Below are positions 3,590 through 42,221 of a DNA stretch of 64,000 nucleotides, one piece after another. Numbering within the stretch: position 1 is the first letter of the stretch; each line of letters starts with the position of its first letter. This DNA is from Helicobacter pullorum NCTC 12824 (GTDB lineage: Bacteria > Campylobacterota > Campylobacteria > Campylobacterales > Helicobacteraceae): the NCBI RefSeq assembly GCF_017979475.1, contig NZ_JAERIT010000006.1, positions 1 through 64,000 of the forward strand, given 5' to 3'. A model generated the notes under the pieces. That model was not told the DNA's origin. It saw nothing but the letters and a program-made list of their open reading frames with translations, and did no database searches. Position numbers and translations under genes: made by a program.

Positions 3590-3646
3590 CTTACAAAAAT
3601 ATTTTTATCCAAAATACCTCAATAAATGCTTCTTGTTTTCAAAAAG

Positions 3647-3662
3647 TGGAACACATATTGCT
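3647..3662 (+). promoter_or_regulatory. Sigma54 (RpoN) promoter of flaB
   Basis: TGGAAC (3647-3652), five bases, TTGC (3658-3661). GG and GC have the -24/-12 spacing that RpoN needs. flaB is RpoN/FlgR dependent in H. pylori and Campylobacter, which supports the call. It lies about 40 bases before the chosen flaB ATG. Confidence 0.85.
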
Positions 3663-3701
3663 TTACAAATTTCAAATTTAAATTTTTGCAAAGGATGCAC
3701 A

Positions 3702-13613: not shown

Positions 13614-15179
13614 TTATGCGTCCCATTCATATTTGATTCTTAATTTCTCTTCCTCATCAATTTCCCCAAATCTCACCATATCTTCCACACTGCGAATCTT
13701 ATAGAGATTTGCGACCACCATTTCCTTACCATCACCGGTTGTGAGGATAAAGGCATTTTGCCCATTAGCAAAAATTGTTTTTTGGATAAACTCCACTCCA
13801 AGCTCTGCTAAGGAAACAATGCTACCATTAGAATCTGTCCCAATCTGCGTAAAATCAAGCTCATTAAGCTTCTCTTCACTCATCTCACTTGCTTCAGTCA
13901 TCACACTCGCTACTTGCCCTGTATTTGTGAGATTAAACTCTCCATTACTCATATAGAGTTCATTGACATTTATCGTTTTGCCCGAAACAAACCGCAAAGT
14001 AATGCTCCCATCATCATTGAGTTTTAGCCCATTAACTGCATCTAGCCCACCATCAAGTGCATTCACATATTTTTGCATTATTTCAGGATTATTGCTATTT
14101 AGCCCCTCATAGATTTCTTTAAATCTTGATTCACTAAACTCCATTCCAGTAAGCTTTTGAAACTCCCGCCTAATAGATAATTCTGTGATAAAATCCGCAT
14201 CTTTGTCGTAATAATTTTGATACATATAATCAAATCGAAACTTCACCTCACTAGCCAAATCCATTTTAGAATCTCTAAAGCCCTTATAATCCTTATATCC
14301 AAACTCTTTAATCATCTCTTCATCAAAAGGACTCATTGCAAAAGTCTCTAATCTCGTAGAGCCATTAAGCATAGGCGATTTAAAAGCAAAATTAAAAGAA
14401 TTCATAAAATCCCAATAAACATAATTCTTCTTGCCCTCTTTATCGATATAAGTTTTGCTTAGATCAATCCACCCACTCTCATCAGCATAAACCTCAAAAA
14501 GCTTTTTTAAGTCTTGACTTTCTATCTTTTTATAACTCAACTCTGGTGCAAAAAGTGAAGTTCCATTGCTTATCCTATCCCCATTTTCCCTAGCCTTATC
14601 CACATCTTTTTGGGTATGGACAAACTTCGTCAAATCTAGTGCCTTATACACATCGCTAAATTTCAAAATCACTTCTTCCCCAGCAGAGTTATAACCCCGA
14701 AGCTTTAGCTTATCAAAAAACTCATCACTAGAATCCAAAAAGCCATCTTTATTGACATCTAAATTAATCAGTTGTCCCAAATATTCCAACTTCCCAACCC
14801 CATATTTATCATTATCCCCCTCCAAATCCAAAAACACCTCCATATCCCCCACCGGCGTTTTTAGGACATTGCTTCTACCATAGTCATTTAGCATACTTGT
14901 GTTATTCAGTGAGGTTCTCTCTGTAGTTGTATAATAGCCAAATGGGTCTTTTATTACTTCATCATGGCGATTAAAACTCCCATAAAAATACGATCTTGTT
15001 CCATTTAATATCGCATCAGTCTTCATTTGTAATTCGTGTTTTTTAAGAGTTTCATCATTTATTTCTATATGATTGTTTCCAGCAATAGCCGATAAACTAG
15101 TCCCATTTGAATCTTTTTTAGCTTCTAAAGCCAAATTTGTCGCAAAAGACAAACTTAATCCATTCCCCAAAGTTATCAT
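13614..15179 (-). CDS. Unrecognised protein with an EF-hand-like calcium loop, probable late flagellar regulon
   Basis: 521 residues from ATG 15179, chosen because AAGGAG lies seven bases upstream and the start forms an ATGA overlap with the preceding gene; a TTG six bases earlier is less likely. No signal peptide or membrane segment. Near residue 145 DVNKDGFLDSSD has acids at EF-hand positions 1, 5, 9 and 12, so calcium binding is plausible. I do not recognise the family. The rest is acidic and asparagine-rich, as in secreted or filament-associated proteins. It is coupled to the 15176-16309 gene behind a sigma28-like promoter, so it may be exported by the flagellar apparatus; that is inference. 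Confidence 0.7.
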   Translation of the reverse strand: MITLGNGLSLSFATNLALEAKKDSNGTSLSAIAGNNHIEINDETLKKHELQMKTDAILNGTRSYFYGSFNRHDEVIKDPFGYYTTTERTSLNNTSMLNDYGRSNVLKTPVGDMEVFLDLEGDNDKYGVGKLEYLGQLINLDVNKDGFLDSSDEFFDKLKLRGYNSAGEEVILKFSDVYKALDLTKFVHTQKDVDKARENGDRISNGTSLFAPELSYKKIESQDLKKLFEVYADESGWIDLSKTYIDKEGKKNYVYWDFMNSFNFAFKSPMLNGSTRLETFAMSPFDEEMIKEFGYKDYKGFRDSKMDLASEVKFRFDYMYQNYYDKDADFITELSIRREFQKLTGMEFSESRFKEIYEGLNSNNPEIMQKYVNALDGGLDAVNGLKLNDDGSITLRFVSGKTINVNELYMSNGEFNLTNTGQVASVMTEASEMSEEKLNELDFTQIGTDSNGSIVSLAELGVEFIQKTIFANGQNAFILTTGDGKEMVVANLYKIRSVEDMVRFGEIDEEEKLRIKYEWDA

Positions 15180-16309
15180 TCCCAAGCTCCTTGCCTAGTA
15201 TTTCTAAAATCAATCATAATAATATTTAAAGTATTCACATCATAATAAATATCAAAATCATTCATATCTACCACCGATGAACTTCCACTAGCTAAAAGAT
15301 TATAAGCTTCCAATGCTAAAGTGCTGATTGAATAAATTTCAGGATTACCCTCATCATCTACATTCTTATATAAAACAGAGAAAATTAATTTTTCTTTAGC
15401 ACTATAATTATCCTTTAATTCAAACATACCCACTATAGGATTATAAAAAATTTCTTTTACTTGTATTGTATTTTTGTTGTTATTTGCATAATCCCTAATA
15501 GTATCTGTATCAAAAAGTCTATTTTTTTGCTTACTTTGCGTAAAGAATTCACTATCCTGTATATTTAATGTATCTCTAACAAATGTATCACTAACCTCTT
15601 CACTATCAACTCCATCTTTTGTTTCCCATTTAATTTGATAATCCAATACATTTTCTATTGCCTGTATATATACCCATTTATTAAGAGGTATTGATTTGCT
15701 AGTAACAAGACTATCTACGGAATAATCCGTTATTTTGGTATTCACTTCCAATTGTCCAGAAGGCAGTAATTGAAAATGAAAATAATCAGACCTATAGCCA
15801 CCTCCAGCCACATAATTCTCATTTCTTGAGAAAAGCGTTAAGTTTTTGTTTGGATATTCAGAAATCTTTATCCACATTCCAAAACTATTACTATGTGGCA
15901 TTCCCCATTCAGTATAGGCAGCATTGAAGTTATGCCCTCCATTGTAATATTCATAAGCATTAACATTTCTCCCTACATATTCATTAGTTTTTTTATCCCA
16001 TTCTTGCACATAATAACTTGTATCATCAAACAAAGCAGAATTATCAACAAACAAATTATTACCTAAATTAACTATTTGATTTAAAGTGTATGCCACAAAA
16101 ACGATTGGATTACCACTTGAATCGTTAATTGACAATAATCCTTCCTTATTATAATCAATACTAAAAGTATCAAAAGGATACATTCCTCCAACCGCCTTTA
16201 CATTTCTTGCACTTTTTTGTGGAAGCTTCAAATTACCCTTCAATTCTTTTTGGGCTGTTTTTAAAGCCTCTTTAGCCTTCTCTCCACTTAGAGTTTCCCC
16301 TACTTTCAC
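15176..16309 (-). CDS. Unrecognised protein, possibly concanavalin/LamG-like, probable late flagellar regulon
   Basis: 377 residues starting at GTG 16309; no other start is available before residue 43. AGGAGG abuts the GTG, which is too close for an ideal ribosome site, and the stop of a 21-codon upstream frame overlaps the GTG (GTGA), so reinitiation is possible. No signal peptide. The middle (residues about 140-230: SFGMWIKISEYPNKNLTLFS, HFQLLPSGQLEV, NKWVYIQAIE) has the strand pattern of a LamG/concanavalin-type sandwich. A confident family match is not possible by eye. It is the first gene of a two-gene operon with a sigma28-like promoter at 16405-16434. Confidence 0.65.
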   Translation of the reverse strand: MKVGETLSGEKAKEALKTAQKELKGNLKLPQKSARNVKAVGGMYPFDTFSIDYNKEGLLSINDSSGNPIVFVAYTLNQIVNLGNNLFVDNSALFDDTSYYVQEWDKKTNEYVGRNVNAYEYYNGGHNFNAAYTEWGMPHSNSFGMWIKISEYPNKNLTLFSRNENYVAGGGYRSDYFHFQLLPSGQLEVNTKITDYSVDSLVTSKSIPLNKWVYIQAIENVLDYQIKWETKDGVDSEEVSDTFVRDTLNIQDSEFFTQSKQKNRLFDTDTIRDYANNNKNTIQVKEIFYNPIVGMFELKDNYSAKEKLIFSVLYKNVDDEGNPEIYSISTLALEAYNLLASGSSSVVDMNDFDIYYDVNTLNIIMIDFRNTRQGAWE

Positions 16310-25208: not shown

Positions 25209-27050
25209 TTAGTAAGAAGAAGTTTTAGAATCAATAACCTTATAATTATAAGGCTTATTGTTTTTGTCCATTTCTAAAAGTTCTTTTGGAGCTGGACCAT
25301 TAATTTCTTCGTGCTTATAATATCTCTCACCTGCTTTGTGTCCGTTCAAATCCACTTTGTAGCGAATCTCTCCAGGATTTAGCTTTTGGATATCCTCAAA
25401 GCCCAAATTAGAAGTTTTGAAGTCCTTAATCCCATTTGCATTTGCAATTTCTACTAGCTTTGTTTGTCCCATTCTAGCCATTTCAACAGCTTGAAGCAAC
25501 ATTCTGCTTGCCTCTCTTGGATTGTGGAATCCTGTAGAATTTTCTGCACCTACAAAGTCACCTCTCATTTGTCCTTTTCTATGCAATTCCAAAGGCTCTT
25601 TTAAAACCGCTGAAATTTTGGCATTATCTGGCTTACCATCACTTTGATATTCAGGTAATTGTCCTAATTTTTCTCTCAATACCTTAATATCTTCAATCAA
25701 GCTCACAGTAGCATATTCTGCACTTCTTAAATCAAAAGCAACTGATTTTTGAATATCCAAAACTTGTTGTTTTAAATATTCTTCGCTTTGTGTATGGCAA
25801 GTTTTACAAGCTGCGTTAATATCTTGCAATGGCGAAGTAATGTTGTGTTGAGTCATTTTTTTAGCCCCTTTTCTAATATAAGGCATATGACAATCTGCAC
25901 AACTCACGCCATTAGCTGCATGCACACCACCGCTATAAAGTTCTGATTCTGGGTGCTGAATCTTTAGCATAGGTGCTTTTGTAAATTTATGCTCCCAATC
26001 TTTATCAAATACATTTCTTACTTTTTCATAATGTGCATCAAACATTTCAATTCTAAATGGCTCATTTTTCTTCCATTCACTCCATGGGAATACAAGCTCC
26101 AACCCATCAACTTCAATTTCTGTTGGTTTATTTCCATCTCTCCAAACATCAATTTCATCATAAGTTTTTTGTGTGCCATTCCACCATTTTTTACTTGGAT
26201 CATTAGCAATAGATTCTCCCATTACTTTGACTTTTGTCCCTGTTGGTTTGAAATAATATTCTACATGGCATTGAGAGCAAACCAAAGTTCTCATTTCTTC
26301 TCTTGTAGCTTTTACTCCCGTAACAGAATCTGGCTCATAACCTCTACTTACCAAAGCATTAATTGCAGCCTGTCTTGTTAAACGCAATTGCATGTCATTT
26401 GGATTGTGGCAATCTGCACAAGTTACACCCATTCTTGTTCCACCATGGGGACCGCTATGATCAGCCACACCTTCTACTTCAGGCACATTTTTAATCATTG
26501 TCCAATATTTTGTAGAGTTAAAAGAAATCCATTTTTCTTCTGGAGTATCTCCAATCCCTACATTTTTAAGCAACCAAGGACTCCAACCACTATGACAATT
26601 CATACAAGCTGTTGGCTGTCCGCCAAATGCACCAAATCCGTGAGCATTCAAAAAGTCTTTGTTGTTTCTTGCAGTATCCATTTGATCTACTTGAATCCAA
26701 AAATGTCCTCTTTCTTCATTAGCATCAATGCTAAAAGGATATCCAGCCCAAAGCACGGTAAGCTGTGGATAACGAATCAATTTTGAATAAGCTAAATTTC
26801 CTCCAAACTCTGTTACAATTGGTTGCTCTCTCTCAACTGTGAGATACATATCCAAATAATCTGGAAAATTTTGCCCCCAATGATCAAATGTCGGATTATC
26901 ATCACTCATTTCTACAAAGCCTTTTGAGCTAATTCCACCTGTTCCTTCTGATTGCTTTTTGGTGATATCTGAATTTAACCATAACAATCCCGCAACAACA
27001 ATCACAGCAATTACCACTAAAATAGGCATTACAAGCGATTTTTTTTGCAT
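25209..27050 (-). CDS. nrfA: Cytochrome c nitrite reductase NrfA with five CXXCH haem sites
   Basis: 613 residues with an N-terminal membrane/signal segment (residues 8-25). Haem motifs: CMNCH 149-153, CADCH 211-215, CSQCH 258-262, CADCH 384-388, CKTCH 415-419. The first site, the active haem, is CXXCK in classical NrfA but CXXCH here. This histidine-ligated form has, as I recall, been noted in C. jejuni. It reduces nitrite to ammonium in the periplasm with six electrons from NrfH. Co-transcribed with nrfH 20 bases upstream. Confidence 0.95.
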   Translation of the reverse strand: MQKKSLVMPILVVIAVIVVAGLLWLNSDITKKQSEGTGGISSKGFVEMSDDNPTFDHWGQNFPDYLDMYLTVEREQPIVTEFGGNLAYSKLIRYPQLTVLWAGYPFSIDANEERGHFWIQVDQMDTARNNKDFLNAHGFGAFGGQPTACMNCHSGWSPWLLKNVGIGDTPEEKWISFNSTKYWTMIKNVPEVEGVADHSGPHGGTRMGVTCADCHNPNDMQLRLTRQAAINALVSRGYEPDSVTGVKATREEMRTLVCSQCHVEYYFKPTGTKVKVMGESIANDPSKKWWNGTQKTYDEIDVWRDGNKPTEIEVDGLELVFPWSEWKKNEPFRIEMFDAHYEKVRNVFDKDWEHKFTKAPMLKIQHPESELYSGGVHAANGVSCADCHMPYIRKGAKKMTQHNITSPLQDINAACKTCHTQSEEYLKQQVLDIQKSVAFDLRSAEYATVSLIEDIKVLREKLGQLPEYQSDGKPDNAKISAVLKEPLELHRKGQMRGDFVGAENSTGFHNPREASRMLLQAVEMARMGQTKLVEIANANGIKDFKTSNLGFEDIQKLNPGEIRYKVDLNGHKAGERYYKHEEINGPAPKELLEMDKNNKPYNYKVIDSKTSSY

Positions 27051-27070
27051 TTTAACCTCCTAAAAATAAA

Positions 27071-27580
27071 TTAAAAACCTCTTTTATGTCCCACACCAGT
27101 ATGGCATGATACACAACTAAGTGAGCCATTTCCATGTGGATTTGTCGTCGGATTTACAACATTGCTTACCATTTCGCTATGACAACGCACACAATTATCT
27201 TGAATCATATTTTTAGATTTTTGTGTTGCAGTTAAATTTGTCGGTAAGACATCTAGCTTAAAGGTAAAAGCATAAGCATGTCCTATCCCACTTTCTGCTT
27301 TTGCAACCCACTTCTCCACAAAACTATGTGGCAAATGGCAATCATTACAAGTTGCGCGTGGCTTACCTGCAATTTTCTGTGAATGCGAACCTCTTGACCA
27401 ATCATTATAAACATCATTCATAATGTGGCAATTATTACAGGCTTCGCTATCATTGCTAAAATAAGACATTCCTTTTGCATTATAAAAAGTATAAAGTCCA
27501 ATCACAACGATTAAAACACACAAAATCCCAAGCAATCCTGCCATCAATGAGAGCGGTTTTTTAGGCTCATTACCTTCCAA
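27071..27580 (-). CDS. nrfH: Tetrahaem quinol dehydrogenase NrfH
   Basis: 169 residues of the NapC/NrfH family. One membrane anchor (residues about 12-33), then four CXXCH sites: CNNCH, CNDCH, CVRCH, CVSCH. It passes menaquinol electrons to NrfA. The start is TTG at 27580 with AAGGAG six bases upstream. A perfect Crp/Fnr-type palindrome lies about 95 bases before it. Confidence 0.95.
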   Translation of the reverse strand: MEGNEPKKPLSLMAGLLGILCVLIVVIGLYTFYNAKGMSYFSNDSEACNNCHIMNDVYNDWSRGSHSQKIAGKPRATCNDCHLPHSFVEKWVAKAESGIGHAYAFTFKLDVLPTNLTATQKSKNMIQDNCVRCHSEMVSNVVNPTTNPHGNGSLSCVSCHTGVGHKRGF

Positions 27581-27646
27581 TTTGCGCTCCTTAAAAGATT
27601 TTTTGAATCTAAAACACTCCTCTTTGGCTTTAAATCCAATAGTAAA

Positions 27647-27688
27647 ATTCTAATTGTTTTTTTTGAAATTTTCCTTGACTTAAGTCAA
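27647..27688 (-). promoter_or_regulatory. Crp/Fnr-type activator site and -10 of nrfHA
   Basis: TTGAC-TTAA-GTCAA at 27675-27688 is a perfect 14-base palindrome with the N4 spacing of Crp/Fnr family sites. A -10 candidate TAGAAT lies at 27652-27647 (minus strand). The start predicted from it, about 27640, puts the palindrome centre near -41.5, the class II activator position. Confidence 0.7.
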
Positions 27689-27707
27689 AAAGTAAATCAA
27701 TGGTAAA

Positions 27708-28340
27708 TCAATTATTTTTAGGAGTGTATTTAAAAGTTGGCAATCCCAAATGATAACGAATAGCAATAATTCTAGCAATAAACCCCACAAGCAGGGCAAA
27801 AATCACTATAAAATTCTCATCTAATTTAAAATAGTTTTGTGCAATAAACTCCAATGCAACATACAAACTTCCAACCAACAAAGCAATGCTTGCATAAAGT
27901 TCTTTTTGAAACACCAAAGGGATTCTTGCACAAAAAATATCTCTCAAAATTCCCCCAAAAACTCCTGTAATCACAGCTCCAGCGACTGCCATTGCTCCAC
28001 TTGGGTGAAAGTCCATACCAATCCTTGCACCAATCACACTAAAAACCGCTAAGCCAAGTGCATCTAAAATCAAAAATGCCTTTTCAAACCTTTCTACAAA
28101 ATAAGGTATCCTTGTCGTAATCAAAGCAGCTATGCAAACCATTGCCAAATATTCTGGGTGCGCTACCCAAGTCAAAGGATAATGTCCAAATAAAATATCC
28201 CGTATTGAACCTCCTCCAATTGCTGTAACACAAGCGATAAAAATCACTCCAAACCAATCCATATTATGCCTACCAGCAGCCAATGCTCCTGTCATTCCCT
28301 CTGCAATAATCCCAATAATATACAAAATTGTTAAAAGCAT
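27708..28340 (-). CDS. TRIC/UPF0126 family membrane protein (YadS/YicG-like)
   Basis: 210 residues with seven hydrophobic segments forming two UPF0126 repeats: GGGSIRDILFGHYPLTWV in the first and GGILRDIFCARIPLVF in the second. Bacterial members form trimeric cation channels; some have been linked to glycine transport. Its stop abuts the start of nothing but it shares one base with the upstream HD gene, so the two are cotranscribed. Confidence 0.88.
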   Translation of the reverse strand: MLLTILYIIGIIAEGMTGALAAGRHNMDWFGVIFIACVTAIGGGSIRDILFGHYPLTWVAHPEYLAMVCIAALITTRIPYFVERFEKAFLILDALGLAVFSVIGARIGMDFHPSGAMAVAGAVITGVFGGILRDIFCARIPLVFQKELYASIALLVGSLYVALEFIAQNYFKLDENFIVIFALLVGFIARIIAIRYHLGLPTFKYTPKNN

Positions 28341-29536
28341 TATTTAAAATCCCTAAACAAATAGCCCAAATCTATTCCATTAAGATTTTTTGCATTATAC
28401 AAATATTCTAAATTCCTTGCACCTTCCTCTAATTCCTTGCTAGAAATCCCATGACTTATGGAGATTCTTGCTTCCAAAAATGCACTTAAATGGTCACAAT
28501 ATTTCAAAAATTCTCCAAAAATAGCACAATTAGAATCTTGATTGTATTTTTGCAAAATATCCTCTCCTTTGGGGAGATAAATCACTTCATTTGCCTTTTT
28601 GTAACGATTCACAAATTCATTTTGCGTAAAATAAATAATATCTTGCTTAATTGCCTCTGGAACTTTTGATAAGATTTTTTCTTTTACCGCTTCTTCTTCA
28701 ATTTGCTTAATAAACTCATCCAACCCCTCTACACTCCGCTTAATAGGGGAGATAATATCGCGCGTAAGAATCTCTGGTAAATCATGGAATAATCCACACA
28801 AAAAATGATTGATTTGCACTTGCCTACAAAATCCCAAATCATAACCCAACAAATAACTACACAATGCCACAATCAAAGTATGCCCCAAAACAGAAGTCGC
28901 AGGGATTCTAGGTGTTTGACTCCAGCGTTTTTGGAATCTCAATTGCCCAAACATCGCAACAAGCTCTCGTATATCCTCGTATAACACGATTTGCTTAATC
29001 CCTGCTAGATGATAATGTTCTTCTACTTGCCTATCAATAATATTTTTAATATTTTGAACATCATACATTTTAGGATTAAAATGATAAATAATGTCAAATT
29101 CCCATTTTGAAGCATAATAATGCGATGCTTTAAGAATCTCTTTTTCAAGATTCTCAATATTGCCATATAAATATTCCCTCATTTCAGCAAAAAAACTAAA
29201 CTTCCCCAAATCTTCTTCTAACTCTTTACAAACAAAATCTACAAGCTCTTTATTATGCTTATTAGCAAGCTTATGGAATACAGGTGGCTTAATATCTGTC
29301 AAAATAATTCTCTCAAAAAACTCATAACAAAACTGCAATATCAGCCTCTCCCAATCCACTTTTCTACCATTTTCTATTTCTTCAAAATGTGCCAAAAGAT
29401 AAGCAATGACAATTTTATGAGCCTGTTTATCTAGCTCATAAAACTCCACTGGAGTGGCTTGATCATTCCACCTGCGAATATTTGCAGCTACAAAGATTCT
29501 ACGCAACAATGCAATATTTAAAGTCGGCTTTCTCAT
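28340..29536 (-). CDS. HD-domain phosphohydrolase, unknown substrate
   Basis: 398 residues, soluble. An HD domain spans about residues 200-340: the second histidine and aspartate pair is CGLFHDLPEILTRDIISPIKRS and a later metal-site Asp is in YCDHLSAFLEA. YfbR-like 5'-nucleotidases share the HDLPE pattern. The N-terminal 190 residues are not recognised. Overlaps the TRIC-like gene by one base. Confidence 0.75.
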   Translation of the reverse strand: MRKPTLNIALLRRIFVAANIRRWNDQATPVEFYELDKQAHKIVIAYLLAHFEEIENGRKVDWERLILQFCYEFFERIILTDIKPPVFHKLANKHNKELVDFVCKELEEDLGKFSFFAEMREYLYGNIENLEKEILKASHYYASKWEFDIIYHFNPKMYDVQNIKNIIDRQVEEHYHLAGIKQIVLYEDIRELVAMFGQLRFQKRWSQTPRIPATSVLGHTLIVALCSYLLGYDLGFCRQVQINHFLCGLFHDLPEILTRDIISPIKRSVEGLDEFIKQIEEEAVKEKILSKVPEAIKQDIIYFTQNEFVNRYKKANEVIYLPKGEDILQKYNQDSNCAIFGEFLKYCDHLSAFLEARISISHGISSKELEEGARNLEYLYNAKNLNGIDLGYLFRDFK

Positions 29537-29747
29537 TTTATCCCCTCTTGAAATAATCTCTATTTTGGTAAATTAAAAATATCAAATACAATAAAGTTAC
29601 AATGCTAACAATAATCTTTTCATAAAATTCCAAAAGAAACTCCAAAAAACCAAATAATTGTATTATTATAATATTTAAAAGATTTTAATGCAAAAGAATG
29701 AAGAAGTTTTGTAATAATTAATGCTATAAACAAAATAAAACTTCCCT

Positions 29748-29763
29748 CTAGCCCTAAGGCTAG
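29748..29763 (-). terminator. Terminator after flaA
   Basis: CTAGCC-CTAA-GGCTAG, a six-pair stem 22 bases beyond the flaA stop, followed on the minus strand by a T-containing run. A different hairpin serves the opposite flagellin body at 33919-33935, so each body has its own terminator. Confidence 0.65.
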
Positions 29764-29783
29764 TGAGAAGCCAAAATATTTGT

Positions 29784-30923
29784 AACTACTGAAGAAGTCT
29801 TAAGATATTTTGTTGCACTGTGTTAGCTTGACTCATTGCATAGCTTCCAGCTTGTGCAAGAATGTTAAGGTTAGAGTAGTTTGCTGATTCACTAGCGAAA
29901 TCTACTTCTCTAATTCCTGATTCAGCAGATTTTACATTCACTTGAGTGATTGTAATATTATTGATAGTAGATTGCATTTGTTGTTGGACAGAACCAAGGT
30001 CTGCACGAATAGTATCAAGTTGTTTGATTGCAGATTCTGCAATATCCATTACAAGCATTGCACCTTTAAGAGTTGTAACACCTGCTCCAAGAGTTCCACC
30101 AAAGTCTAATTCAGCATTTGCAGAGTTGATTCCAGCATTTGCACCAATAGCAGATTTAATATCCGCACTTAATTCACCTTTGATTTGTCTGAGAGTAGTA
30201 GTAGTTTGAGCTGCTGCTGAACCAATTGAAGTTGTAACATCATCTAGCCCTGTTCCACTTACTTTAATATCCCCAGCACCAAGTTTAGTTAATGTAAGAG
30301 AACCAACTGTTGTCCCTGCTTGCACTGCAGTAGCAGCACTTAAACCTTCACCGGTAATATTAATTGCTCTACCATCAGTAGAAGTAAGTTGCAATGAACC
30401 ATCTCTTGCAATAGAAGCTTCAACCCCTGTAGTATCTTTGTAAGCATTGATTGCTTGAACCAATCTATTATCTTTGTCGTTTGCTTGAATGCCTGTAATA
30501 TTACCAATACTTACACCATTGATTGTTAAGCTTGTAACATCACCACCGGTAATAGCTGATGCACCACCAGCAATAACTGTATAATCTGCACGCACACCAC
30601 CTAAATTATCAGAATTTTTATTGATCGCTTCTGCGACTGCACCAAGACCTGTTCCAGCTGAAGTAGAGATAACAACACTCTCGATACTTACATCTTGTCC
30701 GCCATTAGTTGCTATGAAGTTTAATGCTACATCACCTGTTGCGGTAAATTTCATTGTCTCACTTCTAACATGTCCGATTTTATCAGAGCTTGTTGCACCA
30801 ATACTTGCACGGATTGTTTGGTTAGAATATGCACCTACTTGGAATTCTTTATTAATAAAACTACCTGCAAGTAGATTCAAACCATTATAAGAAGTTGTTT
30901 GAGCAATATTATCTAATGATTCT
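29784..30923 (-). repeat. Inverted repeat arm L (flaA codons 121 to stop)
   Basis: Homologous, in opposite orientation, to 32762-33913. Identity starts at the last base before codon 121 (GAA) and ends two bases after the TAG stop. The promoter-proximal 120 codons and both terminators lie outside the homology. Confidence 0.92.
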
Positions 30924-31282
30924 ATAAGTCTGTTAATATCTGCTTGTATCGCTGTTCTTGTAGTTGTAGTTTGACCATCTTGAGCAGCTTGTGTCGCTTT
31001 TGTCTTAATAGTATCAAGGATTTTTACTTGCTCATCCATTGCTTTATCGGCAATTTGGATAATTCCCATACCGTCATTTGTGTTACGAATTGCTTGACCC
31101 AACGCATTTGCTTGAGAACGCAAACTATCAGCAATCGCCATACCTGAAGCGTCATCTTTAGCAGAGTTGATTCTCAAACCTGAACTTAGTTTTTGCAAAG
31201 AACTAGAAAGACTAGTTTGTGTGAAAGTACTTTGAGCTGTTGCATTTAATGCATTAACATTCGTATTGACTTGAAAAGCCAT
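29786..31282 (-). CDS. flaA: Flagellin FlaA (major flagellin), expressed copy
   Basis: 498 residues. Start ATG 31282 has AAGGAG seven bases upstream. D0/D1 N-terminus ([20 protein letters not shown]) and C-terminus ([15 protein letters not shown]) are conserved; the surface-exposed middle is about residues 170-400. A near-perfect sigma28 promoter lies 119 bases upstream. Codons 121 to stop are duplicated in inverse orientation at 32762-33911 beyond a recombinase gene, so this gene appears to be the ON copy of a switch. The N-terminal region differs from FlaB in the usual FlaA way (MAFQVNTN). Confidence 0.96.
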
Positions 31283-31400
31283 TTTAAACTCCTTTTATAT
31301 TGCCTCGCCTTCCTTGGCTTAGCTTGTAATTTAACCCTTCAACAAAAAAGCTTTTGCAAGAACAACTCTTGCTAACCAACTTCCTTGTTTGGTTATGTGA

Positions 31401-31430
31401 TTATATCGGATATTTTTTTAAAAACTTTAA
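31401..31430 (-). promoter_or_regulatory. Sigma28 promoter of flaA
   Basis: Minus strand TTAAAG (31430-31425), then CCGATATAA (31409-31401), with TAAAGTTT and CCGATAT at exact FliA spacing. It lies between the recombinase stop and flaA, inside the putative invertible segment. Confidence 0.88.
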
Positions 31431-31468
31431 TAAAATTTGGATATTTTTATCAAAAATTGACAATCATT

Positions 31469-32614
31469 TTAATTTTGATAGCATAAGCAATATTCTTTAG
31501 AATCTCGCAAATAAGCCTCTAATGCTTCAATGATATATTGTTTTATTTTTTCTGCCACCTCTTCAAAATTATTTGACATTGGATAAAATTTTTGAATTTT
31601 TCTTTTTCGTGGATTTAGAAATAACGCTCTAGGTTTCTTTTTGTTTTTGATAAAACGTGTGTAAATATTATAGGTAATGCTTAAATTCTTGTGTCCTAGC
31701 TGTGTGCTTACCCACAAAGGTTCTTCCCCTTCATTAAGCATAATAGAAGCGTAAGTGTGCCGCGTAATGTAAAGTTTTCTATGTTCAAATCCACAAATTT
31801 GCAATAAGTTTTTCCAATAAGTCATAATTTTAGCCCTAAATCTGCCAAAATTCTCTTCAAAAATAAAATCTCCATTTTTTGAAGCAAGCATTTTTTCTAG
31901 TGTTTCTTTCACTGGAGGAAGCATATCAACATTGCGTTTTGAGCTTTTTGTCTTTGGTAATCCTAATCCCAAATAACTCCCTGTTTTTTCCACTAGAATA
32001 GAATTGTTTTTAAAATCAATACAATCCCATTTTAGAGCCACAATTTCTCCTATTCTCATCCCACTGAAAAATGCAATTTGAAGATAATTAGCAAAATAAA
32101 TAGGATATTCTTTTTTGGCAGTAGCAATCAAATACTTTACCTCCTCAAGATTAAATGGTGTGATTTCTTTACTATCCTCAAGATTGGTTAATTTTTTGGA
32201 AAAAACGACATTTTTACTAACTTTGTCTTCTGCTAATGCTATTTTAAAAATTTCTTTTAGGGCATAAATAATATTTTGTATAGTTACTTTGCCTAGCCCC
32301 TCTTTGATAAGATAGGTATAAAAGTTATCTATATCATCTCTAGTGATTGTGGCAAGAGGTTTTTTGCCTAGAAATTGACTGATTTTGCCATAAGCATAAG
32401 AATAATATTTTTGGGAGCTTGGTTTAAGCGTATTTTTGCTTTTGTATATTTTATTTAAAAAAGCATTTAAGCTGTAATTATCGTGTTTGTTTTTTATATT
32501 TTTGGTGTTACTTAGATGAAAACTAATAAGTCTTTGATAATTTTTTGATACATACTCTCTATTTTCTTTTGTATTAGGTAATTTGGTAGAAAATCTTATC
32601 CTCTTTTTATTCAA
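31469..32614 (-). CDS. Tyrosine recombinase/integrase, start region disrupted
   Basis: 381 residues counted from TTG 32614. Core-binding domain near 50-135, catalytic domain near 150-320 with Arg187 (SGMRIGEI), Lys near 221-223, Arg285 (YITRHT; the usual His before is Tyr as in many P4-type integrases), His308 (LGH) and nucleophile Tyr318 (NIYTRF). In-frame codons upstream still look coding (KIVIRNEKIYIHCT, an arm-binding strand pair). They lead to ATG 32665 with ideal AAGGAG, but codon 2 is TAA. So either the gene is knocked out at its natural start, or it starts weakly at TTG 32614 or by reinitiation. It is the obvious enzyme for flagellin inversion, though a prophage-type remnant is possible. 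Confidence 0.8.
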   Translation of the reverse strand: MNKKRIRFSTKLPNTKENREYVSKNYQRLISFHLSNTKNIKNKHDNYSLNAFLNKIYKSKNTLKPSSQKYYSYAYGKISQFLGKKPLATITRDDIDNFYTYLIKEGLGKVTIQNIIYALKEIFKIALAEDKVSKNVVFSKKLTNLEDSKEITPFNLEEVKYLIATAKKEYPIYFANYLQIAFFSGMRIGEIVALKWDCIDFKNNSILVEKTGSYLGLGLPKTKSSKRNVDMLPPVKETLEKMLASKNGDFIFEENFGRFRAKIMTYWKNLLQICGFEHRKLYITRHTYASIMLNEGEEPLWVSTQLGHKNLSITYNIYTRFIKNKKKPRALFLNPRKRKIQKFYPMSNNFEEVAEKIKQYIIEALEAYLRDSKEYCLCYQN

Positions 32615-32659
32615 AGTGCAATGAATATAAATTTTTTCATTTCTAATAACAATTTTTCC

Positions 32660-32677
32660 TTACATTAAAGGCTCCTT
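32660..32677 (-). promoter_or_regulatory. Ribosome site and ATG-TAA mini-frame before the recombinase
   Basis: AAGGAG (32677-32672), six bases, ATG (32665-32663), then TAA (32662-32660), all in frame with the recombinase. This is the best ribosome site in the region, yet it makes a one-codon frame. Confidence 0.75.
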
Positions 32678-32761
32678 AATTAAATTAATTAGTTAAATAA
32701 TATAGCAAAAGTTTTCAAAATAAAAATTCTTATCTTTATTCTTTAAAGGCACATTTTCTAA

Positions 32762-33911
32762 AGAATCATTAGATAATATTGCTCAAACAACTTCTTATAA
32801 TGGTTTAAATCTACTTGCAGGTAGTTTTACTAACAAAGAATTCCAAGTAGGTGCATATTCTAACCAAACAATCCGTGCAAGTATTGGTGCGACAAGCTCT
32901 GATAAAATCGGACATGTTAGAAGTGAGACAATGAAATTTACTGCAACAGGTGAAGTAGCATTAAACTTCATCGCAACTAATGGAGGACAAGATGTAAGTA
33001 TTGAGAGTGTTGTTATCTCTACTTCAGCTGGAACAGGTCTTGGTGCAGTAGCAGAAGCAATCAATAAAAATTCTGATAATTTAGGTGGTGTGCGTGCAGA
33101 TTACACAGTTATTGCTACAGGTGCAAATGCAATCGCAGCAGGTGATGTTACAAGCTTAACAATCAATGGTGTAAGTATTGGTAATATTACAGGCATTCAA
33201 GCAAACGACAAAGATAATAGATTGGTTCAAGCAATCAATGCTTACAAAGATACTACAGGGGTTGAAGCATCTACAGATAAAGATGGACGATTAGTGCTTA
33301 CTTCTACTGATGGTAGAGCAATCCAAGTAAGAGGTTCTGGTATGAGTGCTGGTGGTGTTGCCGGTATCGTAGTGTCAGGTACTACAGCTACTATTGTCGG
33401 TTCTCTTACATTAACTAAACTTGGTGCTGGAGATATTAAAGTAAGTGGAACAGGGTTGGATGGTGTTACAACTGCAATTGGTTCAGCAGCAGCTCAAACT
33501 ACCACTACTCTCAGACAAATCAAAGGTGAATTAAGTGCGGATGTTAAATCTGCTATTGGTGCAAATGCTGGTATAAATTCTGCAAGTATAGACTTTGGTG
33601 GAACTCTTGGAGCAGGTGTTACAACTCTTAAAGGTGCAATGCTTGTAATGGATATTGCAGAATCTGCAATCAAACAACTTGATACTATTCGTGCAGACCT
33701 TGGTTCTATCCAACAACAAATGCAATCTACTATCAATAATATTACAATCACTCAAGTGAATGTAAAATCTGCTGAATCAGGAATTAGAGAAGTAGATTTC
33801 GCTAGCGAATCAGCAAACTACTCTAACCTTAACATTCTTGCACAAGCTGGAAGCTATGCAATGAGTCAAGCTAACACAGTGCAACAAAATATCTTAAGAC
33901 TTCTTCAGTAG
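32762..33911 (+). pseudogene. Silent flagellin cassette lacking promoter, start and first 120 codons
   Basis: Reads in the flagellin frame from GAA 32763 (equivalent to FlaA residue 121, [14 protein letters not shown]) to TAG 33909-33911, 382 residues. Upstream the frame stays open to a TAA at 32721 without any start codon. No frameshift or stop interrupts it, so it is under selection or recent. Differences from FlaA cluster in the exposed middle: ATGANAIAAGD for [11 protein letters not shown], a six-residue longer stretch around RGSGMSAGGVAG, and NSASIDFGG for [11 protein letters not shown]; both ends are nearly identical. If joined to the FlaA start it would make a 502-residue flagellin. 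An ATG within (32931) could only give a headless product. Confidence 0.9.
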
Positions 33912-33913
33912 TT
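32762..33913 (+). repeat. Inverted repeat arm R (silent flagellin body)
   Basis: Partner of 29784-30923. The inner edge is sharp: flaA reads TATAGAATCATTAG and the cassette TAAAGAATCATTAG, with identity beginning at AGAATC and running unbroken for more than 40 bases, a plausible crossover zone. Confidence 0.92.
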
Positions 33914-33918
33914 TATTT

Positions 33919-33935
33919 CTACCCTTCTTGGGTAG
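33919..33935 (+). terminator. Terminator after the silent flagellin cassette
   Basis: CTACCC-TTCTT-GGGTAG followed by GAATTTTAT. A functional-looking terminator behind a promoterless body supports the idea that this body is sometimes transcribed. Confidence 0.7.
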
Positions 33936-33940
33936 GAATT

Positions 33941-34867
33941 TTATATTTGCTTATCTAAAATTCCCAAAATTGCAGCACCTTCACGGACTCCCTCATCAAG
34001 AATTAAGCACTCTTGAAAATCCAAAATTTCCATAAACAACAAAAACAACACAATTCCAAATGGCACCACATCAGCCCTAAATACCCCAACTAGATTTTCA
34101 CGCTCTTTGTGACTTAAAGCCAAGAATCTTTCTAGCTCATCTCTAAAATCTACCCTATGCAAAGTCTCTCCAAAAACCTTTTTTGAATCATATTGTTTTA
34201 ACCCCATTTTAAAAGCACAAACCATTGTTGGAGTGCCACTATTTGCCACCAAAAACTTTGCTTTTCTCCCCTGTTTTTGATTCTCTTCAATAAACTTTTG
34301 AATCGGCGCTAAAACCTCATCTTTGCATTCAAGAAGATTCTCTATACTTTTATATTTATCTTTTGCTTTTACAATCCCTATTTCAAAACTTTTTGCAAAA
34401 ATCCCCTCTTTGGTGCAAAAAATAAACTCACTACTTGCCCCTCCCATATCCACCAAAACATAACAATCTTGTTTATACTTTGGATTTGTTTTCTGCAGAT
34501 TTTCTATTGCCATTTGCGGAGCTAATGAAGTGATATAGGCTTCCTCATCTCCCTTGATAATCTTAAAACAAATCCCACTTGCTATCTCAATAGCTTTCAA
34601 AATCTCTTGATTATTCTTAGCTTGTCTTATAGCTTGAGTTGTAAGTGCGACGATTTTATCCTTTGGGGTCACCCTTAATTCCTTTTTCATTCTCTCCAAT
34701 CCCGCAATAATCCGTTCTAATGCATTCTTGCAAATCTCTCCACTTTCTTCTAACCCCTCTGAAGTCCTCACTACTTCTTCATATTCACAAAGCACTTGAT
34801 ACTTTTCATTCATTCTTACCCCACGCAAAGAATTGCTTCCCAAATCAATCCCGATACACTCTTTCAT
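33941..34867 (-). CDS. Ppx/GppA phosphatase
   Basis: 308 residues, single ASKHA-type domain pair as in H. pylori and C. jejuni Ppx/GppA. GIDLGSNSLRGV is the first phosphate loop and YVLVDMGGASSEFIF the second; GVFRADVVPFGIVLF lies near the end. Family members hydrolyse polyphosphate and/or pppGpp. It overlaps the histidine kinase stop/start by one base and closes a four-gene operon. Confidence 0.88.
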   Translation of the reverse strand: MKECIGIDLGSNSLRGVRMNEKYQVLCEYEEVVRTSEGLEESGEICKNALERIIAGLERMKKELRVTPKDKIVALTTQAIRQAKNNQEILKAIEIASGICFKIIKGDEEAYITSLAPQMAIENLQKTNPKYKQDCYVLVDMGGASSEFIFCTKEGIFAKSFEIGIVKAKDKYKSIENLLECKDEVLAPIQKFIEENQKQGRKAKFLVANSGTPTMVCAFKMGLKQYDSKKVFGETLHRVDFRDELERFLALSHKERENLVGVFRADVVPFGIVLFLLFMEILDFQECLILDEGVREGAAILGILDKQI

Positions 34868-36108
34868 TACAATGCCTTAAAAATAATCATAAAATAATGC
34901 CGATTTGCTTTATACTGATATTCTAGCTTCAAATGGTGCATTTCTAAAATCCCCTTGATAATCCCCAACCCCAAGCCATATCCTTGAGTTAATTCATGTT
35001 TTTTGTCGCGATAAAAAGGTTCAAAATATTCTTGAATATTCTTTTGCAATCTTTCCCCCTCATTACTCACTCCAAGACAGAATCTCTCTTCGTCCCACCT
35101 TTGTGTAAAAACTTCAATTTTCCCATCGCTTTTATATTTCCTTGCATTTTCAATCAGATTCTTTAAGGCTATGGAAAGAAAATTCAAATCTCCAAAAATC
35201 TTGAAATTTTCTTGTATTTGAATTTCTAATTCCGCCTCATCGACAAATATATGATTCAAGGTTTCAAGCACCAAAGTTTCTACAAAAAACTCTTTAAACT
35301 CTAGCAAATCCTTACCTTCTTGCACTTTTTCAAAAGTTAAAATTTGGCTTGTTAGTTCATCAAGATTCTTAATGGCTTTGTTTAATATCTCTTTTTGAGG
35401 ATTTGGAGGCATTAGTTCTAAGGCAAGTTTTGCTTTAGAAATTGGAGTTTTTAGCTCATGCCCGATATTCCGCAAAATAAACTCTCTTACCTCCATAAGT
35501 TTAGAAATTTTTATCGCCATTGCATTAAAGCTTCTTGCCAAAAGTGCTTGTTCTGGCTCTTTTGGGACTTTAATGCGCACTTTATAATTTCCTTTGCTAA
35601 ATTCTTCCAAAGAATTGCGTAAAATTTTCATTGGATGCAAAATCGCCAAAATAATTGCAAAAGTCAAAAACAAAATCAAAAAGTCCAACAAAATCCACCA
35701 ATTCAAATTATTTCCAAAAGATAATTGCTCTTTGAAATTTTTTTGTGCTATGTAAGATTCTCCCAAATATTCTAACCCAAACCCATAATCTTGATGAATC
35801 TTGAAAATTTGCATTTTAGCCAAAGAATCGCTACTTTTATAAATCACAACCGCTTCTTTTGGGATTTTATCCACACGCACAAAACCATAGTTTTTGATAA
35901 GAGTTTGGATTCTGCGGATATTTCCATTGATGAGCTCTAGCATAGATTGCTGTGCCAAAAAAGTCGTTTGTGAGATGATTTTCTCTTCCTTTTCCCTCAA
36001 ACTTGAAATATTCAAAGAATAAGTAATAATCGCACTAATCACAATCGAAACAAAAAAAAGTAAATAAATCTGAACAAACAAAGAAGGATAAAGCCACTTT
36101 TTAATCAC
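34867..36108 (-). CDS. Sensor histidine kinase
   Basis: 413 residues. Two membrane helices (about 10-30 and 138-155) flank a periplasmic loop; HAMP, then HisKA with NIGHELKTPISKAKLAL, then HATPase with ALKNLIENARKYKSDG and GYGLGLGIIKG. Paired with the response regulator upstream (8-base overlap). The neighbouring CpxP-like gene suggests an envelope-stress or metal signal. It is not ArsS, which is found at 57394. Confidence 0.85.
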   Translation of the reverse strand: MIKKWLYPSLFVQIYLLFFVSIVISAIITYSLNISSLREKEEKIISQTTFLAQQSMLELINGNIRRIQTLIKNYGFVRVDKIPKEAVVIYKSSDSLAKMQIFKIHQDYGFGLEYLGESYIAQKNFKEQLSFGNNLNWWILLDFLILFLTFAIILAILHPMKILRNSLEEFSKGNYKVRIKVPKEPEQALLARSFNAMAIKISKLMEVREFILRNIGHELKTPISKAKLALELMPPNPQKEILNKAIKNLDELTSQILTFEKVQEGKDLLEFKEFFVETLVLETLNHIFVDEAELEIQIQENFKIFGDLNFLSIALKNLIENARKYKSDGKIEVFTQRWDEERFCLGVSNEGERLQKNIQEYFEPFYRDKKHELTQGYGLGLGIIKGILEMHHLKLEYQYKANRHYFMIIFKAL

Positions 36109-36769
36109 AGAATTTATACCCTATTCCCCAAACAGATTGTATGTATTTTGGCTCTTTTGCATCATCTCCTAGCTTTGCACGTAAATTTCTAATATGCGTA
36201 TCAATGCTTCTTAGTGAAGAATCTGGAGCAATACTTGAAATAGCTTGTGAGAGAGATTCTCGCGAATAAGGTTTGCCCTTATTAGAAATTAGAAGATTCA
36301 ATATTTCAAATTCCGCTGGAGTAAGATCTATAGAGTATCCATCTAAGGTTACTTTGCGTTTATTGCTATCTACTTCCAACTCCCCACAACGCAAAACTTG
36401 ATTAGCAGAATACCGCTTCAACAAGGCATTAATTCTAGCCACAAGCTCAATAGGCTCATAAGATTTTGCCAAATAATCATCTGCTCCTCGCTCAAACCCC
36501 AAAATCTTGCTCCCAATATCTCCTCTAGCTGAGGACATAATAATAGGCAAATCGCTGATTTCTCGCATTTTCTTGCATAACTCCAATCCGTCCATTTCAG
36601 GCAACATAATATCCAATACTGCTAAATGAAAATTTTGTTTTGACTTCAACATCTCCAAAGCCTCTTTTGGACTATCTGTCGCCACTGCTTCCATTCCACT
36701 TTTTTTGAGATAATCCACCAAAAGCTTTTGCATATCCAAATCATCTTCCACAATCAAAATCTTATACAT
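36101..36769 (-). CDS. OmpR-family response regulator
   Basis: 222 residues. Receiver with EDD near 8-10 and Asp in LAVLDIMLPEMDG; the conserved Lys region reads DDYLAKSYEP, where the usual KP is KS. Winged helix: YSRESLSQAISS, LRSIDTHIRNLRAKLG, IQSVWGIGYKF. Its stop overlaps the kinase start, and it begins one base after a small periplasmic protein gene. Confidence 0.88.
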   Translation of the reverse strand: MYKILIVEDDLDMQKLLVDYLKKSGMEAVATDSPKEALEMLKSKQNFHLAVLDIMLPEMDGLELCKKMREISDLPIIMSSARGDIGSKILGFERGADDYLAKSYEPIELVARINALLKRYSANQVLRCGELEVDSNKRKVTLDGYSIDLTPAEFEILNLLISNKGKPYSRESLSQAISSIAPDSSLRSIDTHIRNLRAKLGDDAKEPKYIQSVWGIGYKFCD

Positions 36770-37132
36770 TTAATCTTCCCCTATAAATTCCATCAAATTA
36801 ACAATTTCTTGTTCATCCAAAATTTGCCCAATACTCCTATAAAATGTGATTTTAGCGTGAATATAATCTTGATAAATATTTTCTAATTTTCTTTGATATT
36901 CTACAAAATTCACACTTCCATAACCATTTTTTGCAATCTCAGATAAAATCCCATATTCCACAATTTCATTATTTTTATGATAATTCTGCCTTTGTTTATA
37001 AAATTCAATCATCGCTTCTCTCAAAACTTCTTTTTTTGCATTAGGAAGCTCCAAAAACTTCAATCCCTCTTCGATATTTTTTGCTCCAAGATTTATACCA
37101 AAAATCAATAAAAAAACAACCAAAAAACGCAT
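36770..37132 (-). CDS. Small periplasmic helical protein, possibly CpxP/Spy-like
   Basis: 120 residues with signal peptide (FLVVFLLIFGINLGA). The mature part is helical, with KEVLREAMIEFYKQRQNYH and a second helix ending in LDEQEIVNLMEF, similar in size and pattern to CpxP/Spy or CnrX-type sensors that often accompany a kinase-regulator pair. Homology is not certain by eye. First gene of the operon with the two-component pair and ppx/gppA. Confidence 0.6.
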   Translation of the reverse strand: MRFLVVFLLIFGINLGAKNIEEGLKFLELPNAKKEVLREAMIEFYKQRQNYHKNNEIVEYGILSEIAKNGYGSVNFVEYQRKLENIYQDYIHAKITFYRSIGQILDEQEIVNLMEFIGED

Positions 37133-40778: not shown

Positions 40779-42221
40779 CTAATTAATCAATTTTTCATAG
40801 TATCTCTTTTTTAATCGCCAATACCGCACCCAAAACCATAAATATCCCCCTTTATACCATTGCTTGTGTGATTTGATAAAAGCTTCCCCTATTTTATAGC
40901 ATAAACTTTGTTTGTATAATAAAGATTCTTGATAATCTTCATATTCTTCCAATTTAAACTTTTTACCCATACTGATTTCTTGATAGAAACGGTGGGTACG
41001 GAAAATATTATAAAGTACCACAGGAAGAATTAAAAACCCTATTGTATCTTTGGCATTAAAAACAATTGCAATCCCAAATTTATAGCACAAGTGATTTTTC
41101 ACCCTTTTTACTGCACCTATAGGCTTTTTATTTTGAATCTTATCCAGCGTTTTTTGAAACTCCAAATAAATCCTTTGAAGCTCTTTGCCTTGCAACTTAC
41201 TCACTTCCTCTTTGAAGTTAGAAATATCACACATTAGACTTTTATCCAGCTCACTAATCTTTCTTAAAAGATTGCTTTTATAGATTCTTGCCTGCAATGC
41301 CTCATAAGTTTCTTTGTGTTTATAGGGAAAAACCTCGATTAATTCTTGTTTTAATCGCTCCACTTTTTGTAATGGCACTGCATATTCTTGTATGATTTTT
41401 TCTTTCATAGAATCTTTGTATTGCAAAATCTCATCTAAACCCTTCCGGATATCAAACACAAAGGGCTTTGGCATATCATATACGCTATAATAATCTTCAA
41501 ATTTCCAATTCTGTCCTACTGCCATTGTTTTAGTGCATATCACTCGAATATTTGGGATTCCCATTCCATCAGCAATAATCAGCCCATGCATTGCTGAAGA
41601 TAAAATACAATGGCATTGTGCGATTTTTTCTAAATTTTCCATACATGAGTGGTGCACATCAATTAAAATACTATTTGGAATTGCTTCTTGCAATTGTTTA
41701 AAAGATTCTAAATTTACCTCTGTATGGTGAGGTATAATTCCCACGTCATAGATTTTTTGAATTTGAGTTTTATCAATCAATTTTTCAGCCAAAATTCCCG
41801 GATCTGCCAAAACAACCCCACTCAAATCTTGCCCCAAAACCTTTTCCAAAACTGCCTTAGTTTTCCGCCCTCTTAGTGCATAAATTTCAATCTCCCTTGA
41901 AAACTTCATCGGATTTAAACCTGTTTGCGAAGGCTGCCTTATAAACCCACTTCCCCAAATTTTTAAAGGCTTTTTTATCATTTCTAAATTCGCAAAATTC
42001 ATCTCCAAAGAGGGAGGCAATCCCCAACCCAAAATACTCCCGATAGCCAACAATTCTGCTTCTTGGACATTTTTATAATCCACTTTAAATCCAAAAAATC
42101 GCTCCACTAACTCCAAATTCAGAGCATCACCTAAATTATACTCTCCCCTCCAATAATACAAGGGAATGCTTGATAAATTACTATTTAGCCCCCCCCCCCC
42201 CAATCTATCAATTCTACTCAT
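40779..42221 (-). CDS. Polysaccharide pyruvyl transferase family protein, phase-variable
   Basis: 480 residues. Residues about 20-300 match the polysaccharide pyruvyl transferase family: YYWRGEYNLGDALNLELVERFFG, LLAIGSILGWGLP, IWGSGFIRQ, ALRGRKTKAVL, GVVLADPGILAEKL, SSAMHGLIIADGMGIP. A basic C-terminal 170-residue extension is not recognised. Codons 7-11 (LGGGG) are encoded by 13 G residues. At this length the frame is open; one base more or less would stop translation almost at once, and there is no alternative start before the conserved part. It probably decorates a surface glycan in an on/off way. Confidence 0.85.
   Translation of the reverse strand: MSRIDRLGGGGLNSNLSSIPLYYWRGEYNLGDALNLELVERFFGFKVDYKNVQEAELLAIGSILGWGLPPSLEMNFANLEMIKKPLKIWGSGFIRQPSQTGLNPMKFSREIEIYALRGRKTKAVLEKVLGQDLSGVVLADPGILAEKLIDKTQIQKIYDVGIIPHHTEVNLESFKQLQEAIPNSILIDVHHSCMENLEKIAQCHCILSSAMHGLIIADGMGIPNIRVICTKTMAVGQNWKFEDYYSVYDMPKPFVFDIRKGLDEILQYKDSMKEKIIQEYAVPLQKVERLKQELIEVFPYKHKETYEALQARIYKSNLLRKISELDKSLMCDISNFKEEVSKLQGKELQRIYLEFQKTLDKIQNKKPIGAVKRVKNHLCYKFGIAIVFNAKDTIGFLILPVVLYNIFRTHRFYQEISMGKKFKLEEYEDYQESLLYKQSLCYKIGEAFIKSHKQWYKGGYLWFWVRYWRLKKRYYEKLIN
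42189..42201. repeat. 13-base C/G homopolymer, slippage tract
   Basis: Thirteen C on the plus strand (G in the coding strand) within the fifth to eleventh codons of the pyruvyl transferase gene. Tracts of this length are the standard phase-variation switch of surface genes in Helicobacter and Campylobacter. Confidence 0.92.

Follow-up and report, generated by a model that had tools for sequence, protein, structure and literature searches.

A flagellin locus of Helicobacter pullorum with the layout of an in-frame inversion switch around a prophage-type integrase gene

Organization of the flaA locus

We analyzed a 64,000-nucleotide stretch of Helicobacter pullorum NCTC 12824 (positions 1 to 64,000 of contig NZ_JAERIT010000006.1; hereafter, the window), in which the major flagellin gene flaA lies beside an integrase gene and a second flagellin body that faces the opposite way and lacks the N-terminal part (the headless body). 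An initial annotation, made from the sequence alone, had described flaA from codon 121 to the stop codon and the headless body as inverted repeats of about 1.14 kb, with the promoter region, flaA codons 1-120, and a tyrosine recombinase gene between them. The repeats were borne out by a repeat search and by alignment, and flaA and the recombinase gene were confirmed as described. The principal features are as follows, the recombinase being given as an open reading frame (ORF).

29786-31282, minus strand: flaA, major flagellin, complete; 498 aa, codons 121-498 forming one repeat arm
29784-30926, minus strand: repeat arm 1, from flaA codon 121 to just beyond the stop codon, from the repeat search and base-by-base alignment
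32759-33913, plus strand: repeat arm 2, the headless flagellin body; 382 codons open, stop codon at 33909-33911
30924-32761, no strand: segment that would invert, 1,838 bp with flaA codons 1-120, the flaA promoter, and the recombinase gene, as follows from the arm alignment
31403-31429, minus strand: sigma28-like flaA promoter, TAAAGTTT-N11-TCCGATAT, within the segment that would invert; conserved in the related genome G005
31469-32614, minus strand: tyrosine recombinase/integrase ORF, 381 aa from a TTG codon, from Pfam, PHROGs, and a prophage relative

The repeat search gave the inverted arms as three blocks, 29784-30108/33589-33913 (325 bases, 99%), 30118-30318/33385-33585 (201 bases, 92%), and 30334-30926/32759-33351 (593 bases, 92%). 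The arms are about 1.14 kb long and 1.8 kb apart, and the flaA locus thus has inverted repeats bounding a segment, as in an inverton. The headless body is in the same frame as flaA codons 121-498, with a protein identity of 93%. The initial annotation had also placed the start of the homology at the same codon and in the same frame on both sides, in line with the exact identity that runs from 30923 and 32762, and its expectation that inversion would yield a flagellin of 502 residues agrees with the length obtained, by arithmetic, when flaA codons 1-120 are joined in frame to the body.

In the whole assembly (1,708,003 bases, 26 contigs), the strong flagellin matches were flaA, the headless body, and flaB (3633-5252); three weaker matches with 28-33% identity, from a further two contigs, resemble, in our reading, hook-associated proteins of the flagellum. 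Both Flagellin_N (residues 5-141) and Flagellin_C (412-497) were found in FlaA by Pfam. The best NCBIfam model for flaA was flagellin A, with 695 bits under a cut-off of 752, while the flagellin B subfamily model gave 657 bits, over its cut-off of 503. The best matches of flaA in the congeneric genomes G003, G004, G005, G007, and G016 had 80-85% identity. The headless body alone is not a complete flagellin: its 326-aa ORF had no Flagellin_N match in Pfam, and the 382-codon body aligns from position 121 of the best flagellin models. A free-standing gene starting at ATG 32931 was considered and dropped, as the N-terminal domain would be absent. A consensus scan listed no promoter-like site immediately 5' of the body in the body's orientation. 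Predicted structures of flaA and three flagellins of the window had a mean predicted local distance difference test (pLDDT) value of 41.5 and were not used.

Outer-domain alleles and intactness of the headless body

The flaA product and the headless body differ at 38 alignment columns, gap columns included, of which 37 lie outside Flagellin_N and Flagellin_C, i.e., between them; the exception is position 432. These columns were compared with 15 complete FlaA proteins from 14 species of the genus, G006 contributing two; the set did not include the partial matches of G010 and G013 or the genomes G009 and G014, which gave only a flaB-like match. Four of the proteins shared more residues with flaA than with the body, namely those of G005 (22 versus 6), G007 (18 versus 7), and G011 (16 versus 8), and one with 12 versus 10 in G006, whereas the other eleven were nearer to the body (for example, 20 matches to the body and 6 to flaA in G002, and 19 and 3 in G003 and G004). 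The outer domain of the silent body is therefore of a type present in complete FlaA elsewhere in the genus. These columns define two allele types, and the complete FlaA proteins of congeners include both. The two complete FlaA genes of G006 (L060 and L061) are identical in the first ~50 bases after the stop codon.

Across 376 aligned codons, flaA and the body differ by 82 nucleotides, 41 synonymous and 41 non-synonymous, without a stop codon, and the insertions and deletions are limited to 12, 6, and 6 bases. The ratio of non-synonymous to synonymous rates (dN/dS) was 0.30, with a synonymous divergence (dS) of 0.16 overall; between species, dS per block was 0.3-1.4, mostly 0.6-1.2. Only 30 residues are changed at the 376 aligned positions, as compared with a mean of 57 and a minimum of 45 in 2000 neutral simulations. 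When 82 substitutions were placed neutrally, a stop codon appeared in 90% of 2000 simulated bodies. This figure is too favorable, since some of the differences accumulated in flaA itself or at an earlier stage; were only half as many changes applied, we estimate that about two in three simulated bodies would carry a stop codon. Parsimony against G003-G005 placed 8 synonymous and 7 non-synonymous changes on the branch leading to flaA and 4 and 6 on that leading to the body, leaving 57 of the 82 unresolved; two larger outgroup sets gave 3/10 versus 1/5 and 5/9 versus 1/6 (synonymous/non-synonymous, flaA versus body branch). By its sequence, the headless body is undecayed.

Ends of the homology and a putative crossover site

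Exact identity opens with an identical 7-bp stretch, AGAATCA, whose first base is 30923 in flaA and 32762 in the body, and both arms stop just past the stop codon. Two features were assigned at these ends.

30917-30923, minus strand: putative 7-bp crossover region AGAATCA at the flaA end, without an inner dyad arm
32753-32777, plus strand: putative recombination core at the body end, ATTTTCTAA-AGAATCA-TTAGATAAT, with the crossover region at 32762-32768

At the body end, ATTTTCTAA and TTAGATAAT are inverted copies at 8 of 9 positions. This 9-7-9 dyad framing the 7 bp has the putative layout of a tyrosine-recombinase core site. An equally good dyad tied in this way to the homology start was found in 0.5% of 20,000 random sequences, or 1.3% if the right side was kept, under a model that allowed one base of slack, spacers of 6-8, and arms of 9-11, and that covered one end only; as two ends were examined, these figures should be doubled. 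The dyad-framed 7 bp may serve as a pointer to the crossover point, short of proof.

In viral contigs, no match was observed to an exact 20-mer or to the flagellin boundary pattern, and a relaxed dyad pattern hit at least 120 stretches and was uninformative. When the prophage record BK070132 was searched for 13-mers common to both ends, 34 short matches were obtained in the printed orientation, none of them convincing, and 41 shared 13-mer matches were counted in the opposite orientation. A blastn search with 32620-32800 returned 37 weak matches, with no Helicobacter among the best 20 of the 37.

The recombinase gene

The recombinase matched Pfam Phage_integrase (PF00589, E 1.1e-19) and phrog_1. 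The closest relative found in phage records was an H. pullorum prophage integrase, with 56.6% identity over residues 4-333; the next 19 of the best 20 among 1,617 matching phage records were from Helicobacter phages or prophages, with 32-42%. The residues R187, R285, H308, and Y318, i.e., the catalytic R...R-H...Y, were conserved in 31 of 31 aligned sequences. Residue 282 was Y in 30 of the 31; the equivalent position is usually H in tyrosine recombinases. The nearest solved structures were Int proteins such as 6emy (E 8.3e-11), which are structures of the Tn1549 integrase. No second copy of the recombinase was found in the assembly.

Among plasmids, the integrase matched 315 records, all below 60%, the best 20 of the 315 having 24-31%. 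A scan of genome contigs gave four remote integrases (24-26%), three of them in Clostridia bins and one in a Proteobacteria bin, and a scan of viral contigs gave one match (26%). No other phage genes were listed between 31469 and 33913, no phage structural or replication genes were seen near the integrase by eye among ORFs of at least 60 aa in 27000-37000 (phage families were not searched), and a megablast of 28000-36000 against phages gave no match.

A comparison by eye with the H. pullorum prophage gene located the translation start region upstream of the long ORF.

32660-32677, minus strand: integrase ribosome-site region, AAGGAG, a spacer, and an ATG directly followed by a stop codon

When the frame after the stop codon was read, Arm-DNA-bind_2 scored 19.1 against a cut-off of 22, as compared with 26.8 for the prophage relative. 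The stop codon after the ATG and the sub-cut-off N-terminus therefore place expression and arm binding of the recombinase in doubt. By eye, a short overlapping frame ends at the TTG of the long ORF.

Distribution in relatives

Partial flaA matches run to contig ends in G010 (codons 142-498) and G013 (codons 416-498). The contigs of these genomes (L050 at the end of contig C16, and L064 at the end of contig C17) break inside flaA, and no match to the 5' part of flaA was listed in either beyond flaB and hook-associated proteins. The family-wide flagellin search of 121 genomes covered the best-scoring matches, and headless bodies of lower score may occur outside the genus. Related integrases at E 1e-30 or better occurred in 34 of the 121 genomes, H. 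pullorum NCTC 12824 included. Nine integrase stretches of 10-18 kb contained no flagellin, except for one weak flagellin-family match in L056 (30% identity, ~7 kb from the integrase). Among viral contigs, none was found to encode a flagellin of the flaA/body kind, and none of the nine phage records with a flagellin match names Helicobacter.

Chromosomal setting and 3' regions

The gene names hdod, ppx, degP, trpA, and ffh were assigned by eye. In the window, flaA lies between hdod, which follows it, and the integrase, the body, and ppx, which the body faces. In G005, flaA lies between degP and trpA, and in G003, G004, and G005, flaA is 7.4-7.6 kb from ppx, with hdod elsewhere. In the window, trpA occupies 48957-49727. 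Another contig carries degP, next to the genes found ahead of hdod in G005, and a third carries ffh with its neighbors. The stretch 28340-34867 is a junction of chromosome regions that lie apart in these three close relatives. About 190 bp upstream of flaA, the flaA promoter region included, resemble G005, and the integrase and body therefore seem to have been added upstream of flaA at a rearrangement breakpoint.

Two candidate terminators were located at the 3' ends.

29728-29763, minus strand: stem-loop and T-rich run 3' of flaA, recognized by eye and missed by the consensus scan; resembles the flaA 3' end of G005
33915-33939, plus strand: terminator of the headless body, from the consensus scan

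The initial annotation had given each body its own, unrelated terminator. The two terminators do differ, but "unrelated" was slightly strong, as the sequences downstream of both bodies resemble those that follow flaA in relatives. Against G005, G003, and G004, the flaA 3' region gave values of 49, 37, and 35 (0, 0.026, and 0.118 of 500 shuffles as high), and the body 3' region gave 39, 36, and 36 over a shorter stretch (0, 0.002, and 0.006). The 3' regions were tried as a guide to the ancestral partner of the flaA N-terminus and set aside, flaA being better against G005 and about equal against G003 and G004.

A possible inversion switch and its alternatives

Taken together, the layout, the matching homology starts, and the undecayed second body are best read as an alternative-flagellin inversion device, a reading on which our confidence is evenly balanced. 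The segment 30924-32761 carries the recombinase gene along with the flaA promoter and the 120 codons of the constant N-terminus, and its flip would detach that N-terminus from one body (the outer domain and C-terminal helices) and fuse it, still in frame, to the other. The outcome would be a FlaA of either 498 or 502 residues, the two forms differing almost exclusively in the central region, a part that is exposed on the surface in flagellins. The exchange would be catalyzed, now or formerly, by the phage-type integrase at the AGAATCA common to both ends; the homologous recombination of the host, acting on the 1.14-kb arms, could also flip the segment. We infer that the inversion occurs, that the integrase performs it, and that the benefit would be immune or phage evasion. 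Such a device, built from a prophage integrase, is possibly weak or locked. A fuller history, in which a prophage integrase was captured at a flagellin attachment site and now works as a tyrosine-recombinase switch that swaps the outer and C-terminal flagellin parts in frame, is put forward tentatively, with rather more doubt than belief. If the segment flips, the locus would be a reversible two-state switch of the main flagellin by in-frame body exchange, not by promoter inversion, and would illustrate a path by which a prophage integrase turns into a device for surface variation.

Several observations weigh against an inversion device. A free search for dyads in 100-base stretches was unremarkable (0.34 and 0.21 of 300 shuffles were as good, the latter figure being that of the body end), and the inner dyad arm is absent at the flaA end. 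The ATG at the integrase ribosome site is met at once by a stop codon, the longest ORF starts from a TTG 17 codons on, and the TTG ORF is without 17 residues of the prophage relative, part of the arm-binding N-terminus. The column of the catalytic lysine, K223, is K in only 14 of the 31 alignment rows, for which reason it is uninformative. The headless-body arrangement was seen in one genome only, and, contig-edge fragments aside, no headless body was found in 18 other genomes of the genus. In the single assembly analyzed (one assembly per species), only one orientation was present. For 29 of 36 other integrase matches, the flanks, up to 1.5 kb on each side, had no flagellin match. The parsimony counts, which gave no clear excess of changes on the body branch, have low power, and the intactness of the body could reflect a recent origin. 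By gene order, the locus sits on a chromosomal rearrangement breakpoint. Of the antigenic-variation device proposed in the initial annotation, the switch anatomy stands (the shared 7 bp, the undecayed alternative body, and the catalytic R, R, H, and Y), while its status as a device is weakened by the prophage-like integrase with a damaged start, the single genome, and the breakpoint.

Close behind the inversion device we keep another explanation, unlikely in itself, that the locus is the relic of a prophage and no longer switches. Our reasons are the damage at the start of the integrase gene, the lack of an inner arm at the flaA end, the occurrence in a single genome, and the breakpoint. The integrase would have used flaA codon 120/121 as its attachment site in a copy of flaA, and the body, together with the junction on its 5' side (sequence upstream of the integrase, then AGAATCA, then the body), would be an attachment junction moved beside the intact flaA by rearrangement. 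The H. pullorum prophage origin of the nearest integrase found (56.6%) is consistent with this, as is the shape of the 32762 junction, with the dyad arm on the integrase side and flaA homology on the other, and the two complete copies in G006 make a second flaA copy plausible. However, no further phage gene is listed in 31469-33913, the body is not decayed, and flaA is undocumented as an attachment site, with no flagellin of the flaA/body kind found on a viral contig and no Helicobacter named in the nine phage records with a flagellin match. It is improbable, in our estimate, that the integrase is a bystander and that inversion or gene conversion between the 1.14-kb inverted repeats depends on RecA only. 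Arms of 92-99% identity and 1.8 kb apart are ample for homologous recombination, and the longest run of identical synonymous codons between flaA and the body was 69 (P 0.07). The synonymous differences were not significantly clustered (P 0.07, and P 0.42 for their spread), so that gene conversion between the arms, which is also left unsupported as part of an inversion device, is not claimed; moreover, the homology start coincides with the dyad-framed 7 bp, which homologous recombination does not need. We regard as least probable a static, functionless partial duplication of flaA or a recent import of the 3' part of another strain's flaA. Its occurrence in one genome only would suit such an event, and the body may be young since its dS is 0.16 as compared with 0.3-1.4 between species; the arm, however, begins at the shared 7 bp and ends just past the stop codon, and its intact frame carries a different outer-domain allele.

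Comparison with known systems

To our knowledge, there is no other flagellin switch in which a tyrosine recombinase swaps bodies, with the promoter, the constant N-terminus, and the recombinase on the invertible segment, and a literature search for a published switch of this kind found none, most subscription journals being outside its coverage. In the Salmonella Hin/fljBA system, flagellin expression is likewise altered by inversion of a segment, and the hin gene lies on that segment, as the recombinase gene does at the flaA locus. Hin is a serine recombinase that moves the promoter only, whereas at the flaA locus the enzyme is a tyrosine recombinase and the gene bodies themselves would be swapped in frame. 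The flaA locus is not a Hin system because the sole recombinase ORF listed in the segment is of the tyrosine class. The available text of one report describes inversion of a flagellin promoter by Hin and, in Flavonifractor plautii, hin beside the csrA-tldR flagellin-control loci (phage-encoded flagellin control) with ~120-bp flagellar promoter inversions (PMC13418256). The F. plautii loci share with the flaA locus the presence of a recombinase gene, and their small inversions affect a flagellar promoter; they differ in their Hin-type invertase, with no body exchange described in that text.

PsrA of pneumococci, in contrast to Hin, is a tyrosine recombinase. As far as the available account goes, inversions by PsrA, a recombinase within the pneumococcal cod/SpnIII hsdS locus, swap parts of the expressed gene with unexpressed homologues (PMC12324116). 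That system differs from the flaA locus in that, according to the same account, it concerns restriction-modification specificity genes, not flagellin, with three inverted-repeat pairs and six alleles. In-gene swapping of parts by inversion is already precedented outside flagellins, and the flaA locus, as we read its layout, would reach a Hin-like outcome by an hsdS-like route. In Moraxella, inversion changes which pilin is expressed, and the recombinase Piv is of the DEDD/IS110 type. The Moraxella pilin inversion is tabulated in a further source (PMC11868660). The protein concerned there is a type IV pilin, unlike that of the flaA locus. Integrases of Helicobacter prophages share the same domains and up to 56.6% identity with the flaA-locus enzyme, but those listed sit in prophage records, and no flagellin was found within the 1.5-kb flanks of 29 relatives. 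Flagellin change through site-specific recombination by an integrase has a precedent that works by excision rather than inversion. The Hsr surface protein of Helicobacter mustelae is varied by recombining cassettes into an expression site, as far as the available text describes it (PMC2846917); Hsr is an autotransporter, and that text describes no recombinase of the flaA-locus kind.

Other features of the window

A run of 13 G at 42189-42201 was noted near the start of a gene at 40779-42221 (minus strand), which by eye is polysaccharide pyruvyl transferase-like; it is likely a slipped-strand on/off tract. At 13614-16309, two overlapping minus-strand ORFs (377 and 523 aa) may be a single gene cut by a frame change.

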